The translations under genes and the position numbers were made by a program. From assembly GCA_022072455.1 (NCBI GenBank), contig JAJVHY010000026.1:1-64000 (forward strand): a stretch of 64,000 nt of DNA. The letters run 5' to 3'. Under the pieces are notes generated by a model that was not told the DNA's origin, did not search any database, and worked only from the letters and a program-made list of their open reading frames with translations. This document shows, one piece after another, positions 12,486-54,609 of this stretch (positions are counted from its first letter, which is position 1; each line of letters starts with the position of its first letter). Source of the DNA: Verrucomicrobiia bacterium (lineage in GTDB: Bacteria; Verrucomicrobiota; Verrucomicrobiia; Palsa-1439).

Positions 12486-14975
12486 TTGAACTCGCTCCAA
12501 ATATATCGCCGGTTTGGTAAACCGGTTTTTCTGGCGGTGGCCTTGCTCACTGCCTGCGACCGCGCCAAGAAACCGGTGCCGCCGCCAACCGCTGGGCCTG
12601 TGACGGTGCATTATCACCGGTATGACGGGGATTATGCCGCCACGATCTGGTCGTGGGACGAAACCAATCACCGAACTCCCACGCAAAACGAACTGAAGCC
12701 GGTCGGCCGCGATGACTTCGGACTGATCTTCCAGTTCGACCCCAAGGACTATGGCCAACCGGGCCAACCGCAGAAAATCGGACTCGTCCCACGCCTGCAC
12801 GACGACTGGAATCAGAAAGACTCACCTGACAAATTCTGGACGCCGGCAATGGGCAATCACGTTTATCTCATTGGAGGCGATGCAAAGATTTATATGAAGA
12901 AACCCGTCCTCACCAAACAAGTGATCGCCGCGTACGTCGAAACGCGCGACCGACTCATCGTGGAAGTCTCCGAACCGGTGGACGGCAGTTTGCCGGTAAC
13001 GGTCGCCGACCGGGCCGGTAATCAGGTCGCGGTTGCGACGACCCGCCATCACAAGGCCAACGCCATCGAAGCCCGGCTCGCGCAGCCGCTCGATTTGGCA
13101 CGGGATGGCTACACCGTGAGCGTTACCGGGTTTGCGGGAAACGTGGGGCTGACGCCGCGCGGTATTTTGGATGACCGGGATTTGTTCTTCGACCGGGATG
13201 CGGTCTTGGGTGCGACGTACACGGCGGCGGCGACGACGTTCCGCGTGTTTGCGCCGACGGCGCTCGCGGTCAACGTGGTGCTTTACGATTCGGCGACCGG
13301 TGCGACGGGGCGGCGATTGGTCGCGATGACGACCGCCGGCAAGGGGATTTGGGAGACGCAAGTGACCGGCAATCTCGCCGGTAAGTTTTACGCGTACAGT
13401 CTGGATGGCGCCGGTCTCGCGCCGGACCGGGACGTGCTGGATGTTTATGCGGTCAACGCCGTGGATAGTTCCCGGCGGGCGCGGATTACCGATATGGCGG
13501 CGACGGGGCAGGTGCCGCCGGGGCCGCGCGTCGGCGCGCCGCAGGATATCGTCGTGTATGAGATGCACGTGCGGGATTTCACGATCGCGCCGAACTCGCC
13601 CGCGAAACCGGCGGACCGCGGCCGGTATCTCGGCTTCATCGCCGGCATCCCGCACTTGCAGGAACTGGGCGTGACGCATGTGCAGCTGTTGCCGATTCAG
13701 GATTTCGAGAACAACGAGCACTCGACCAACTACAACTGGGGGTATGTCACCTCGGTTTTCAACTCGCCCGAAGGTTGGTTCGCGTCGAATCCGAACGACG
13801 ACAGCCGGGTGCGGGAGTTGAAACAACTCGTCACCGCGCTGCACGAAGCCGGCATCGGGGTGATCATGGACGTGGTCTATAACCACACGTCGAACAATGC
13901 GCCGTTCAACTCGCTCGTGCCCCGGTATTACTACCGGCTGGACAAGAACGGCGGTTATCTCAACGGCTCCGGTTGCGGCAACGATTTTCGCACCGAGGCG
14001 CCGATGGCACGGAAGTACATCATTGATACGATGAAGTTCTGGGTGCAGGAGTACGGGATTGACGGGTTCCGATTTGACCTGATGGCGTTGTTGGATCTCG
14101 ACACGATGTTGGAATTGGAACGAGAGCTCCGCGCGATTCGCCCCGACATCATTTTATACGGCGAACCTTGGGCGGCCGGGCCGAGCACCGCGAAGATTCC
14201 AACGAACAAACAGACCATCGGCGGCACGCGGATCGGCGCGTTCAATGACGCGATGCGGAATGCGATCATCGGGTCGCCGTTCGACAAGGCACATGGTGGT
14301 TTTTTGCAGGAGGGCGGGCACCGCGAGCAGTTGCAACGGGCGATTCCCGGCCAGTGGCGCGATTGGGGCGATGGACCGCATCAGGTTGTGCAATACATTA
14401 GTTGCCACGACAACTACGTCATCTACGACAAATTGCAGTTGTCCAAACCCGGCGCGACGCATGGCGAACTGATCGAGATGATGAAACTCGGGTACCTGAT
14501 GCTGTTCACGGCGCAAGGCATCCCGTTCATCCACGGTGGCGAGGAATTTGCGCGCACGAAAAAGGGGCACGAAAATAGTTACGAAGCGCCCGATGACATC
14601 AATCAAGTTGACTGGTCGTTGAAGCAACAGAATCGCGGGCTCTATGAATATGTGCGCGGGCTGATTGCGTTGCGGAAGGCGCACCCGGTCTTCCGGATGC
14701 GAGCCAAGGAGCAGATCGCCGCGTGGATGAAGTTCCCGGAAACCGGCGACCCGAATGTCTTTATGTTCACGGTGGATGCCGGCCATGTGGCCGGTGAGAC
14801 TTGGCAGCAAGTCTGCGTCATCTTCAACGCCGCCGACAGCATCAGCGCGGAAGTGACATTACCGACGGGGCAGTGGCGGGTGGCGTTTGACAAGGATGGC
14901 CCGGTACAGAATGGGCAAACCGTTACCGGCACCGCGCGCGTCCGCTACAAGTCGGGGATGATTTTGTGGCAGTAG
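12486..14975 (+). CDS. Secreted type I pullulanase (GH13) lipoprotein
   Basis: The 829-residue product cleaves alpha-1,6 branches in pullulan or starch. A TTG start gives a lipoprotein signal (AVALLTAC). A CBM41-like starch-binding region (HYHRYDGDYAATIWSWD) and a CBM48-like region follow. The GH13 catalytic domain has MDVVYNHT, GFRFDLM (nucleophile Asp531), YGEPWA (acid/base Glu560) and SCHDN (Asp642). The YNWGY motif is typical of pullulanase type I. The TAG stop is the first triplet of a 22-bp inverted repeat. It faces a GH66-like gene, pointing to glucan breakdown outside the cytoplasm. Confidence 0.9.
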   Translation: MNSLQIYRRFGKPVFLAVALLTACDRAKKPVPPPTAGPVTVHYHRYDGDYAATIWSWDETNHRTPTQNELKPVGRDDFGLIFQFDPKDYGQPGQPQKIGLVPRLHDDWNQKDSPDKFWTPAMGNHVYLIGGDAKIYMKKPVLTKQVIAAYVETRDRLIVEVSEPVDGSLPVTVADRAGNQVAVATTRHHKANAIEARLAQPLDLARDGYTVSVTGFAGNVGLTPRGILDDRDLFFDRDAVLGATYTAAATTFRVFAPTALAVNVVLYDSATGATGRRLVAMTTAGKGIWETQVTGNLAGKFYAYSLDGAGLAPDRDVLDVYAVNAVDSSRRARITDMAATGQVPPGPRVGAPQDIVVYEMHVRDFTIAPNSPAKPADRGRYLGFIAGIPHLQELGVTHVQLLPIQDFENNEHSTNYNWGYVTSVFNSPEGWFASNPNDDSRVRELKQLVTALHEAGIGVIMDVVYNHTSNNAPFNSLVPRYYYRLDKNGGYLNGSGCGNDFRTEAPMARKYIIDTMKFWVQEYGIDGFRFDLMALLDLDTMLELERELRAIRPDIILYGEPWAAGPSTAKIPTNKQTIGGTRIGAFNDAMRNAIIGSPFDKAHGGFLQEGGHREQLQRAIPGQWRDWGDGPHQVVQYISCHDNYVIYDKLQLSKPGATHGELIEMMKLGYLMLFTAQGIPFIHGGEEFARTKKGHENSYEAPDDINQVDWSLKQQNRGLYEYVRGLIALRKAHPVFRMRAKEQIAAWMKFPETGDPNVFMFTVDAGHVAGETWQQVCVIFNAADSISAEVTLPTGQWRVAFDKDGPVQNGQTVTGTARVRYKSGMILWQ

Positions 14976-15035
14976 GGTGCGCTATTGCGCACCACGTTGA
15001 TGATCCCAGCGAATGGTGCGCAATAGCGCACCCTA
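14973..15035. repeat. Inverted repeat shared by two convergent stop codons
   Basis: Perfect 22-bp arms (14973-14994 and 15014-15035) flank a 19-base spacer. Each arm is itself a hairpin (GGTGCGC-TATT-GCGCACC). The outer TAG of the left arm is the stop of the pullulanase gene and the outer CTA of the right arm is the minus-strand stop of the GH66-like gene. It has the same two-hairpin design as the repeats at 17053, 40507 and 54383. It could also serve as a two-way transcription barrier. Confidence 0.85.
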
Positions 15036-16040
15036 CGGGACGACTTGTAGACACGCGTTCTCTGCCTCATTTAGCGGCACTGTGTCCGGCCAGTATTCGG
15101 TTTTCATGCGCCGGGCGCCGTCGCCGACGATGAGATAGACCAAATTATGGCGCTGGGCTTCCGCGTGCCGGGCGCAGATAACCTCCGCGGCGGTCTGACC
15201 GGCGGGGACGGCGACGGTGGCGTACATCGCGAGGACTCCACGCGTGCCGGCCATTTCGGAGTGATCCATTTCAGCGTAGTAGCGCTTGGTCGTGGCGTCG
15301 GACCAGGATTCGACGTAGGGGAATTCCAGTTGCTCACGCACGATGGCGCGATCCCACCAGGCCATGTCCACCAGATTCATCGTCTGGCGTAAGCCGTGCC
15401 GGGCGAGCAGGGGGCGGGCGGTTTTCAGGAAGGCGTGGATGCCGGCCGTTTCAGCGCCGTAGTCGCCGGCAATTTTTCCCAACGTGTCCCAGTGGATGCC
15501 GTCGAAGCCGAGTTGTTTGACGCGGCGGGCCCAGCGGCTGACCATGTGTTTGGCCCACGCGGCATTGGCGAAGTAGGTGGGAAACCGGGGTTTCTCTGCG
15601 CCGGGGGGATGCCAGTGCCATTGACCGGCGGCGTTGCGGAGTTTCCAGATGTCCTGCTGGGGGTCTTCGAGATCTTTTTCGTCTGAACCGATGGCCTGCA
15701 CGTAAGCCCAAGCGCGGCCGCCTTGCCGGTGGATTTCATCAATGCTGATTTCGATGGTGCGCCGGTCGATTCGTCCCTTTTGGAAATACGGCGTCGGCCA
15801 ATGGTCGCCGGCCACGGGCGTGGAGTAGTCGGCAAACCAGTCGTAGAATTGGAATTCGCGGATGCCGTAGTCGCGGGCCATCGTGGCGATGCGGGTGCGG
15901 ATGGTTTCTTCGGCTTGCGGGCCCATGACAGCGCTGGAGAGGAAACCATACGGACCGGTCAGGCCGCGTGGTTTTTCGGCGGCAACGGTGGCGGTGCCGA
16001 GCGCCAGCACGGTGAGGAGTTGGAGAATGGTTTTGTTCAA
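15033..16040 (-). CDS. GH66-like secreted glycosidase (dextranase/cycloglucan family)
   Basis: The 335-residue protein starts at a TTG (16040) that overlaps the upstream stop (TTGA). Earlier in-frame codons give no signal sequence. Residues 1-21 are a signal peptide ending TVAAE. GH66 hallmarks seen are REFQFYDWFADY, RAWAYVQAIG, LGFDGIHWDTLG (Asp185, nucleophile position) and FPYVESWSD (Glu244, acid/base position). It lacks the extra domains of full dextranases, so it is a minimal form. Substrate inferred: alpha-1,6-glucan. It faces the pullulanase. Confidence 0.75.
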   Translation of the reverse strand: MNKTILQLLTVLALGTATVAAEKPRGLTGPYGFLSSAVMGPQAEETIRTRIATMARDYGIREFQFYDWFADYSTPVAGDHWPTPYFQKGRIDRRTIEISIDEIHRQGGRAWAYVQAIGSDEKDLEDPQQDIWKLRNAAGQWHWHPPGAEKPRFPTYFANAAWAKHMVSRWARRVKQLGFDGIHWDTLGKIAGDYGAETAGIHAFLKTARPLLARHGLRQTMNLVDMAWWDRAIVREQLEFPYVESWSDATTKRYYAEMDHSEMAGTRGVLAMYATVAVPAGQTAAEVICARHAEAQRHNLVYLIVGDGARRMKTEYWPDTVPLNEAENACLQVVP

Positions 16041-16957
16041 TCCGTTTTGACCGGGAGGTCGCCGAGGATTTTGTTGTATTGGTGGATCAGGATGAGAAAC
16101 GACAGGGGCAGGGTGAAGATGATGCCGATGAAGCAGCCGATGATGCCGATGGAGCCGAGGATGCCGGCGACGAACATCAACGCGAATGTACTCCACCAGT
16201 GTTTACCGACGACTTGCCGGCTGAGTTGCATGGCGGGCCAGAAGGGGAGGCGTTTATCGGCGGCCAACGGCAGGGCGTAAATCCAACTGATCGTCAGGTA
16301 GCAGGCGACCAGAATGCCGACGGCGAACAGCGCAATGCTGGGGATCAACCAGATGCCCATTGCCGTCCAATTCGGTGCGCTGCCGTGTTTGACTGCGCCG
16401 GTCACCAGCACACCCACGACGGCGACAATCACGCCCGGCAGCATGCAGAGACCGGTGAAGAGGCTGATCACAATCTGGGTCAGCATGAGGTTGAGGAAGT
16501 TGTTTTTGAAGCCGCTGAAGACTTCGCTGACCGGTGGGGCTTCGCCGCGGATGTGGCGCGCCAAGACCGCAAACAAGCCGCCCAGCAACGGGCCTTGCAC
16601 GATGAGTTGGGGGATGAAGCCGATGAAGGGAATCAAGCTGCACGCGGTAATCAGTCCGAAGGCCGCCAACGTCGCGCCGAGAATACTCCCGAAGTTGGCC
16701 CGGTAGGTTGTCCACGCGGCGTTGATCGAGTCGCCGATGTCGATGGTGTAATCCCGGTTCCGCACGGTTTCGGTAGTGACCAGCGGCTCGACCGGTGGTG
16801 TGGCGGTGGCGAGTTGGCTGTAGGGTTTCCATTCGGGCAGACCGTCGCGCCAAACAAGGGTTTCGGGGCGAATGACGCCGGTGGCGACGAGCTGTTGAAA
16901 TTCGCTGTCGGTGACCGGTCCGGTTTGTTGACCTGCGGCGACGTAGTACCAATTCAT
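16037..16957 (-). CDS. GYF-domain (DUF4339) integral membrane protein
   Basis: The 306-residue protein has an N-terminal GYF_2-type domain at residues 1-50 (NWYYVAAGQQTGPVTDSEF, then LVWRDGLPEWKP). A hydrophobic part follows with about six membrane segments resembling DUF975-type proteins. GYF domains bind proline-rich peptides. The function here is unknown. GAGGAG precedes the ATG. It is translationally coupled to the GH66-like gene by a TTGA overlap, which may tie it to export or surface handling of that enzyme. Confidence 0.7.
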   Translation of the reverse strand: MNWYYVAAGQQTGPVTDSEFQQLVATGVIRPETLVWRDGLPEWKPYSQLATATPPVEPLVTTETVRNRDYTIDIGDSINAAWTTYRANFGSILGATLAAFGLITACSLIPFIGFIPQLIVQGPLLGGLFAVLARHIRGEAPPVSEVFSGFKNNFLNLMLTQIVISLFTGLCMLPGVIVAVVGVLVTGAVKHGSAPNWTAMGIWLIPSIALFAVGILVACYLTISWIYALPLAADKRLPFWPAMQLSRQVVGKHWWSTFALMFVAGILGSIGIIGCFIGIIFTLPLSFLILIHQYNKILGDLPVKTD

Positions 16958-17052: not shown

Positions 17053-17124
17053 GTGGGAGCGGCGTCCCCGCCGCGACTTGCAGCGCGCAAGCATAACCGG
17101 TCGCGGCGGGGACGCCGCTCCCAC
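17053..17124. repeat. Two-hairpin inverted repeat with adjacent short repeat
   Basis: Perfect 24-bp arms (17053-17076 and 17101-17124; outer sequence GTGGGAGCGGCG) are separated by 24 bases. Each arm folds on itself (GCGGCG-TCCC-CGCCGC). A separate small palindrome, GGCCACG-ACGGAG-CGTGGCC, follows at about 17144-17163. The element fills the gap between the DUF362 gene and the GYF gene. Confidence 0.85.
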
Positions 17125-53786: not shown

Positions 53787-54609
53787 TGCGTTCGGCGTAA
53801 AACAGATACTGCTGCGCCCAGCCGGCATACGGGCCGAAGTGTGCCCGGATTTTCGGGGGGGTCAGCTTGCGCCGGGGAAACAGCCGCTTCAACGACCGTT
53901 GCACGTGGACATCAATCGGAAACGCTTCGTGATGTCCGCATGAAAACAGCAACGTGCAATTCGCGATCTTCTCCCCGACACCGGGGATCTTCAGCAATTC
54001 TTCCAGTGCCCGCCCATATTCCATCGCCGGTAACTCCGCGAGGCGGACGGCGCCGCTTTCCACCATTCGTGCCGCGGCGAGCAGGTATTTGGCGCGAAAC
54101 CCGAGTTTACACGCCGCCAGTGCCGGCAACTCGGCGCGTGCGACGCGTTCCACCGCCGGAAACGCGCCGTTCTCGCCCAGCCGTTCCGCCAAGTGCGCCA
54201 CGATTTGCCGGATCTGGACGATTTGTTTCGTCGAACTTGCGATAAACGACGCCAGCGTCTCCCATGGTTCTTGTCGGAGAACGCGCAGCCCCCAATGGGC
54301 TTCCACGGCTTGTTGCAAGGCTGCATCTTGGGGAAAACTGGCGACAATCGCCGGCAGAGAGAGGTCGAGTGTGAGGTAGTCGTGTAGCCGCGAGTCTGCT
54401 CGCGGCTCCGGTAGCGGGTTGGGCTGGCCGCGAGCAGGCCCGCGGCTACATTGCCATTCCAGATTGTTCCCGTCCTGTCGCAACCGCCAGACTTCGTTCC
54501 AAACCACCCCGGTATACCAGCCATCCGCGTCCCGCGACCAACGGAATGCTTGGCCACATTCGAGCGTCGCGGCCAGATTGAAATCTGTGACGTTGATTCG
54601 CTGGGTCAT
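53767..54609 (-). CDS. ogg: OGG1-like 8-oxoguanine DNA glycosylase
   Basis: The 280-residue protein has the OGG N-domain (FNLAATLECGQAFRW), a helix-hairpin-helix with the catalytic lysine (LLKIPGVGEKIANCTLLF) and a downstream catalytic Asp (FPIDVHVQRSLKRL). It removes 8-oxoguanine and nicks DNA. Residues 53-77 (QCSRGPARGQPNPLPEPRAD) come from an in-frame palindromic insertion within the N-domain. The frame and catalytic core stay intact. AlkA-type activity is a less likely alternative. Its end overlaps the M36 gene by 20 bases (convergent). Confidence 0.85.
   Translation of the reverse strand: MTQRINVTDFNLAATLECGQAFRWSRDADGWYTGVVWNEVWRLRQDGNNLEWQCSRGPARGQPNPLPEPRADSRLHDYLTLDLSLPAIVASFPQDAALQQAVEAHWGLRVLRQEPWETLASFIASSTKQIVQIRQIVAHLAERLGENGAFPAVERVARAELPALAACKLGFRAKYLLAAARMVESGAVRLAELPAMEYGRALEELLKIPGVGEKIANCTLLFSCGHHEAFPIDVHVQRSLKRLFPRRKLTPPKIRAHFGPYAGWAQQYLFYAERIRARPA
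54383..54450. repeat. Palindromic two-hairpin repeat inserted in the ogg gene
   Basis: Arms 54383-54406 and 54427-54450 (outer TGTAGCCGCG) pair over 24 bp with 2 mismatches, and the left arm folds on itself (GCCGCGAG-TCTG-CTCGCGGC). The spacer is 20 bases. It is coding on the minus strand without breaking the frame. Confidence 0.85.

Follow-up and report, generated by a model that had tools for sequence, protein, structure and literature searches.

A palindrome that ends two convergent genes

The 64,000-nt stretch considered here (the window) covers positions 1 to 64,000, forward strand, of contig JAJVHY010000026.1 from a Verrucomicrobiia bacterium (assembly GCA_022072455.1), and contains two convergent genes that meet at a palindromic repeat from which both take their stop codons. 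The plus-strand gene (12486-14975) is of pullulanase type, with Pfam PUD, CBM_48, alpha-amylase and pullulanase C-terminal domains. Facing it on the minus strand is a GH66-like gene (15033-16040 with the start given by the codon model; the longest open reading frame (ORF) spans 15033-16196), which has Pfam support and matches solved GH66 enzymes (3wnk, E 6e-10). The inverted repeat at their junction (14972-15036) consists of perfect 23-nt arms, 14972-14994 and 15014-15036, separated by a 19-nt spacer. A sequence-only reading of this locus had proposed that the outer TAGs of the palindrome are the two stops, and this holds for both the pullulanase-type gene (14973-14975, plus strand) and the GH66-like gene (15035-15033, minus strand). 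The arm length of 22 bp given there needs correction, since the arms extend one base further out, and the tetranucleotide that forms the outer end, or foot, is GTAG and not TAG.

Each arm corresponds to one GTAG-tagged repetitive extragenic palindrome (REP), in which the foot is followed by the hairpin GGTGCGC-TATT-GCGCACC (single-strand form GTAGGGTGCGCTATTGCGCACC). The first unit occupies 14972-14993 on the plus strand, with its foot at 14972-14975, and the second, inverted unit 15015-15036 on the minus strand, with its foot at 15036-15033. They are joined by a spacer (14994-15014) whose outermost bases also pair and whose sequence and length differ among copies. The whole palindrome is a head-to-head REP doublet of the type known as REPIN (REP doublet forming hairpin) or BIME (bacterial interspersed mosaic element), and it belongs to the known system of REPs and their REP-associated tyrosine transposase (RAYT). 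The RNA fold of the region has an energy of -54.4 kcal/mol (z = -9.7; none of 200 dinucleotide shuffles was as good). The palindrome is not a chance occurrence, because it ranks in the top two by length among the perfect inverted repeats listed for the window and is one of 15 copies in the genome. The sequence-only reading also raised the possibility that the repeat blocks colliding transcripts. A terminator scan of window positions 14700-15300 found no hairpin with the T-run of a Rho-independent terminator.

Copies of the family and the RAYT gene

In this genome the family numbers 15 members, of which 14 are doublets and one is a single unit; their arms hardly differ and their spacers are unrelated (the degraded or lone matches at C13:28060-28109, C4:272949 and C3:61993 are left out of these counts), and no match was found in 56 relatives. 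The copies are dispersed, mostly extragenic inverted pairs, low in number. The foot is GTAG in 26 of the 29 feet and GCAG, GTTG or ATAG in the remaining three, a tetranucleotide that stays unpaired. Among the eight distinct REP units, three of the seven stem pairs are altered on both sides, as in the doublet at C7:37588-37650, where both hairpins read GGTACGC/GCGTACC, and 100% of stem cells are paired, compared with 90.3% in shuffles (0/500 reached 100%). Six of the 15 elements lie between convergent genes and, on our reading of the gene calls, both genes end on the feet at four of these six. The single unit (C19:97926; L025 1727-1750) carries the end of a trypsin-like gene on its foot. The rsmA-like gene that faces it stops at a TAG in the loop, which reads TACT instead of TATT, and its protein is 5-8 residues longer than the homologues.

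A RAYT gene of the TnpA_REP type (C9:197045-197620) sits between two doublets, with its start 2 nt past one of them and its stop inside a foot of the other. Among solved structures it matches TnpArep 4er8 (E 5.7e-35), and it scores 182 bits against NCBIfam NF047646 (cut-off 80); two toxin-chain matches in the same PDB search (E 0.28 and 0.77) were discarded as chance. Four other, longer Y1_Tnp genes (L026-L029; 314-372 aa) fall under the NF047646 cut-off, and the scan listed no GTAG or GTGG hairpins beside them. The one bona fide RAYT of the genome is the likely mobiliser of the doublets. The association recurs elsewhere: GTAG hairpins, some with altered stems, adjoin RAYT relatives at 10 of 12 loci (9 of 11 apart from the present genome), and the RAYT ORF ends on a foot TAG in four of the seven placeable RAYT ORFs, the present one included. 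Among the matches listed, the RAYT stop is a REP-foot TAG at L267, L271, L273 and L285, in genomes reached via records of different phyla.

Stop codons and reading frame at the feet

How regularly do the feet provide stops? The flanks of the 29 feet were scored by a codon model and checked against ORFs and Pfam. Twenty feet face the 3' end of a gene, and 14 of these genes use the foot TAG as their stop, six stop earlier and none reads past. The 14 include the RAYT and the trypsin-like gene, which the script labelled unclear but whose top-scoring frame is the foot frame and which have Pfam matches. In the six earlier-stopping genes the gap between stop and foot is 0, 0, 0, 2, 4 or 18 nt. Of the other complete genes called in the window, 54 in all, 14 stop with TAG, compared with 14 of the 20 facing genes (Fisher p 0.0009).

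The element can be entered in three frames, which meet, respectively, the immediate TAG, a TGA at base 27, and no stop. All 14 genes that reach a foot enter it in the TAG frame (p 2e-7 against an expectation of one third). Of these three, the immediate-TAG frame is, it seems, the only one that is well tolerated.

Length of the C-termini

The sequence-only reading had also suggested that the repeat truncated longer ancestral C-termini, an idea that does not survive alignment with repeat-free homologues, whose C-termini are near-equal. The pullulanase homologues G010 (59% identity) and G004 (57%), which lack the repeat, end a single residue later, one with TAG and the other with TAA. For the GH66-like protein no homologue was found in the 56 relatives, 383 other genomes of the class gave one distant match, and two good homologues came from a search of the phylum. 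These, G491 (66%) and G543 (59%), run on for 3 and 8 further residues; both stop with TAG and neither has an extra domain. For nine further foot-terminated genes, the homologues (31 in number) differ from the present proteins by -2 to +14 residues. When a median is taken for each of the 11 foot-terminated genes, these medians centre on +2 residues and run from -1 to +6.5. The orthologue sets behind these values were hand-picked (40 stretches); the comparison left out the urod and gh130 genes, whose matches were weak, and the u589 gene, and the rsmA-like gene was excluded from the 11 as it is ended by the REP loop and not by a foot. A long C-terminal truncation is therefore rejected on the homologues, and what the element removed was likely small trims, at most.

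Origin of the arrangement

The explanation we favor, and hold to be very probable, is that the doublet is a non-autonomous element, spread by RAYT, that landed in a tight convergent junction and re-terminated both genes in frame. The doublet would probably have been spread by the RAYT transposase of this genome and would have entered a tight tail-to-tail junction, breaking or displacing both old stops. With GTAG pointing outward on either strand, a doublet inserted in the correct frame would give each gene a new amber stop within a few codons of its former one. In any other frame the gene would gain a tail encoded by the hairpin, and such insertions would probably be lost, which is the reason we propose for the strict frame seen in this genome. 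In the window, convergent junctions without a doublet are mostly tight, the spacers of the other seven pairs being -20, -4, -4, 0, 2, 6 and 485 nt, and where convergent genes abut, a doublet landing between them must re-terminate both. More tentatively, and with rather more doubt than conviction, the family as a whole may be tied to gene ends by frame, such that, where tail-to-tail genes overlap or abut, an insertion survives only if it re-terminates both neighbors. If so, the recognition tag of RAYT doubles as a safety stop, and the element can live in junctions without spare DNA.

Several observations weigh against this explanation. The same REP type occurs in a Phycisphaerae genome, where the foot is used by only 5 of 19 facing genes, 12 stop earlier and two read past (p 0.01 against the 14 of 20 here). 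The genome studied here also carries a second GTAG family, represented at window positions 54383-54450, which gives its foot TAG to no gene at all: six facing genes stop before the foot (stop start 15-87 nt before it) and one is called as reading past. Because the pattern is weaker in the one and missing from the other, the stop-giving habit is no simple consequence of a GTAG foot. In three relatives, the stops at the syntenic m32/manA junction are 276-437 nt apart, so that tight ancestral junctions are an assumption. The mobility of the element, its insertion history and the selection on frame are likewise inferred. The trend to shorter C-termini, finally, is weak: the protein of this genome is shorter in eight, longer in one and equal in two of the 11 genes (p 0.04, taken without a control set). 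Compaction of the whole genome as the sole cause of the stop-giving was rejected, as the other GTAG family that the genome carries stays away from stops. Two further sets did not enter the comparison: the Rhodobacterales copies, where 36 of 43 feet were unclear in gene calling and antisense frames are suspected of scoring alike, and a Phycisphaeraceae set that was too small (11 feet: no foot TAG, five earlier stops, one read past, five other).

Alternatively, the doublet may be kept as a two-way 3'-end device that protects or ends both transcripts, or slows ribosomes at the stop, copies elsewhere having been lost. The great stability of the hairpin and the position of the 20 facing genes, none of which stops more than 18 nt from a foot, are consistent with such a role, as is the statement in PMC12306157 that REPs less than 16 nt from the stop codon can downregulate translation in Escherichia coli. 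Against it, no T-run adjoins the hairpin, 9 of the 15 copies lie, on our reading, outside convergent junctions, and copies are lacking in 56 of 56 relatives, which argues against an old conserved function; we regard it as possible but unlikely. An intrinsic bidirectional terminator with no mobile history is far less credible still. A strong hairpin between convergent genes would suit it, but the existence of 15 copies that are nearly the same apart from their unrelated spacers does not, nor do the GTAG feet, the covariation of the stems and the RAYT gene that two of the copies enclose, and for want of a T-run it was rejected.

The order of events could also be reversed, with the TAG present first, RAYT targeting existing TAG stops and the doublet supplying none. 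According to PMC8266576, the choice of cleavage site in one REPtron involves the GTAG tetranucleotide, three more genes have a TGA immediately next to the foot, as a preference for stops would produce, and both GH66-like homologues and one of the two pullulanase homologues end in TAG. Yet by our count TAG is the stop in only 9 of 35 homologues of the foot-terminated genes, the homologues tend to end some codons later, the cleavage reported in PMC8266576 is mainly at C|T, and most genes in the survey of the comparison genome stop 8-31 nt before the foot. Targeting of existing stops appears improbable, less so than the bare terminator and more so than the 3'-end device.

Relation to known REP systems

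Di Nocera et al. (2013, PMC3733652) had already described that GTAG REPs "often provide" the ORFs beside them with TAG stops, and the text of that paper names Opitutus terrae (Verrucomicrobia) as rich in GTAG repeats. Its GTAG-tagged head-to-head (HH) dimers resemble the present doublet in giving TAG stops to flanking ORFs; what is added here is the share of facing genes that take their stop in this way, 14 of 20. The stem sequence of the present family, searched as a string, does not occur in the paper's text, figures aside. The text of Nunvar et al. (2010, PMC2817692) describes RAYTs flanked by REPs, often with a REP immediately 3' of the rayt stop, and includes a Haemophilus REP, GTAGGGTGGGCTT(c/t)AGCCCACC, that is very similar in form to the present one. 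Here, a complete doublet stands on either side of the RAYT gene, whose stop falls inside a foot, and the copy number is low compared with the more than 100 per genome given as usual in PMC2817692. TnpA_REP depends on GTAG, as set out in PMC8266576. For E. coli, the text of PMC12306157 cites the stalling of ribosomes by REPs that lie no more than 15 nt from the stop; a hairpin at such a distance is shared with the present case, in which the stop codon is itself part of the REP.

Two inverted REPs forming one larger hairpin are said to be the replicating unit of REPINs. The doublets share the paired inverted REPs, while numbering only 14 in this genome.

Among the papers listed by full-text literature searches, none treats frame selection of REP insertions in its title or abstract opening. 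As TAG stops from GTAG REPs were already described, the frame count is a modest addition that leaves current views unchanged. It provides a clean, countable case of the known habit (14 of 20 facing genes, with no read-through) and a likely reason for it, the tight convergent junctions, set beside another GTAG family of this genome, which lacks the habit. It also calls for caution in annotation, as the stop codon and last few residues of a gene can belong to a neighboring mobile repeat.

Related palindromes in the window and in other genomes

The REP form GTAGGGTGCGC-NNNN-GCGCACC occurs, among the matches listed, in records titled Phycisphaerae, Rhodobacter and relatives, Microcoleus, Melainabacteria, Sulfurovum and others (L075-L154). 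The contig scan for this form listed 80 of at least 119 matching stretches as loci, and the 107 REP matches in them were examined. Its table of open lengths, in which coding and antisense frames are indistinguishable, was not used for statistics.

Two more palindrome families are present in the window. The one at 54383-54450, the second GTAG family described above, combines GTAG with a CCGCGAG hairpin and has few copies. The other, at 17053-17124, has GTGGGAGCGGCGTCCCCGCCGCGAC arms and is referred to as the GTGG family. A strict hairpin filter keeps two matches of it, and a looser filter gives a set of 30 feet, 10 of which are labelled "open" or "reads past", for a position within an open coding frame or one that continues through the foot, mostly in the frame GTG GGA GCG GCG. 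It may be that the GTGG family sits inside genes as a coded insert.
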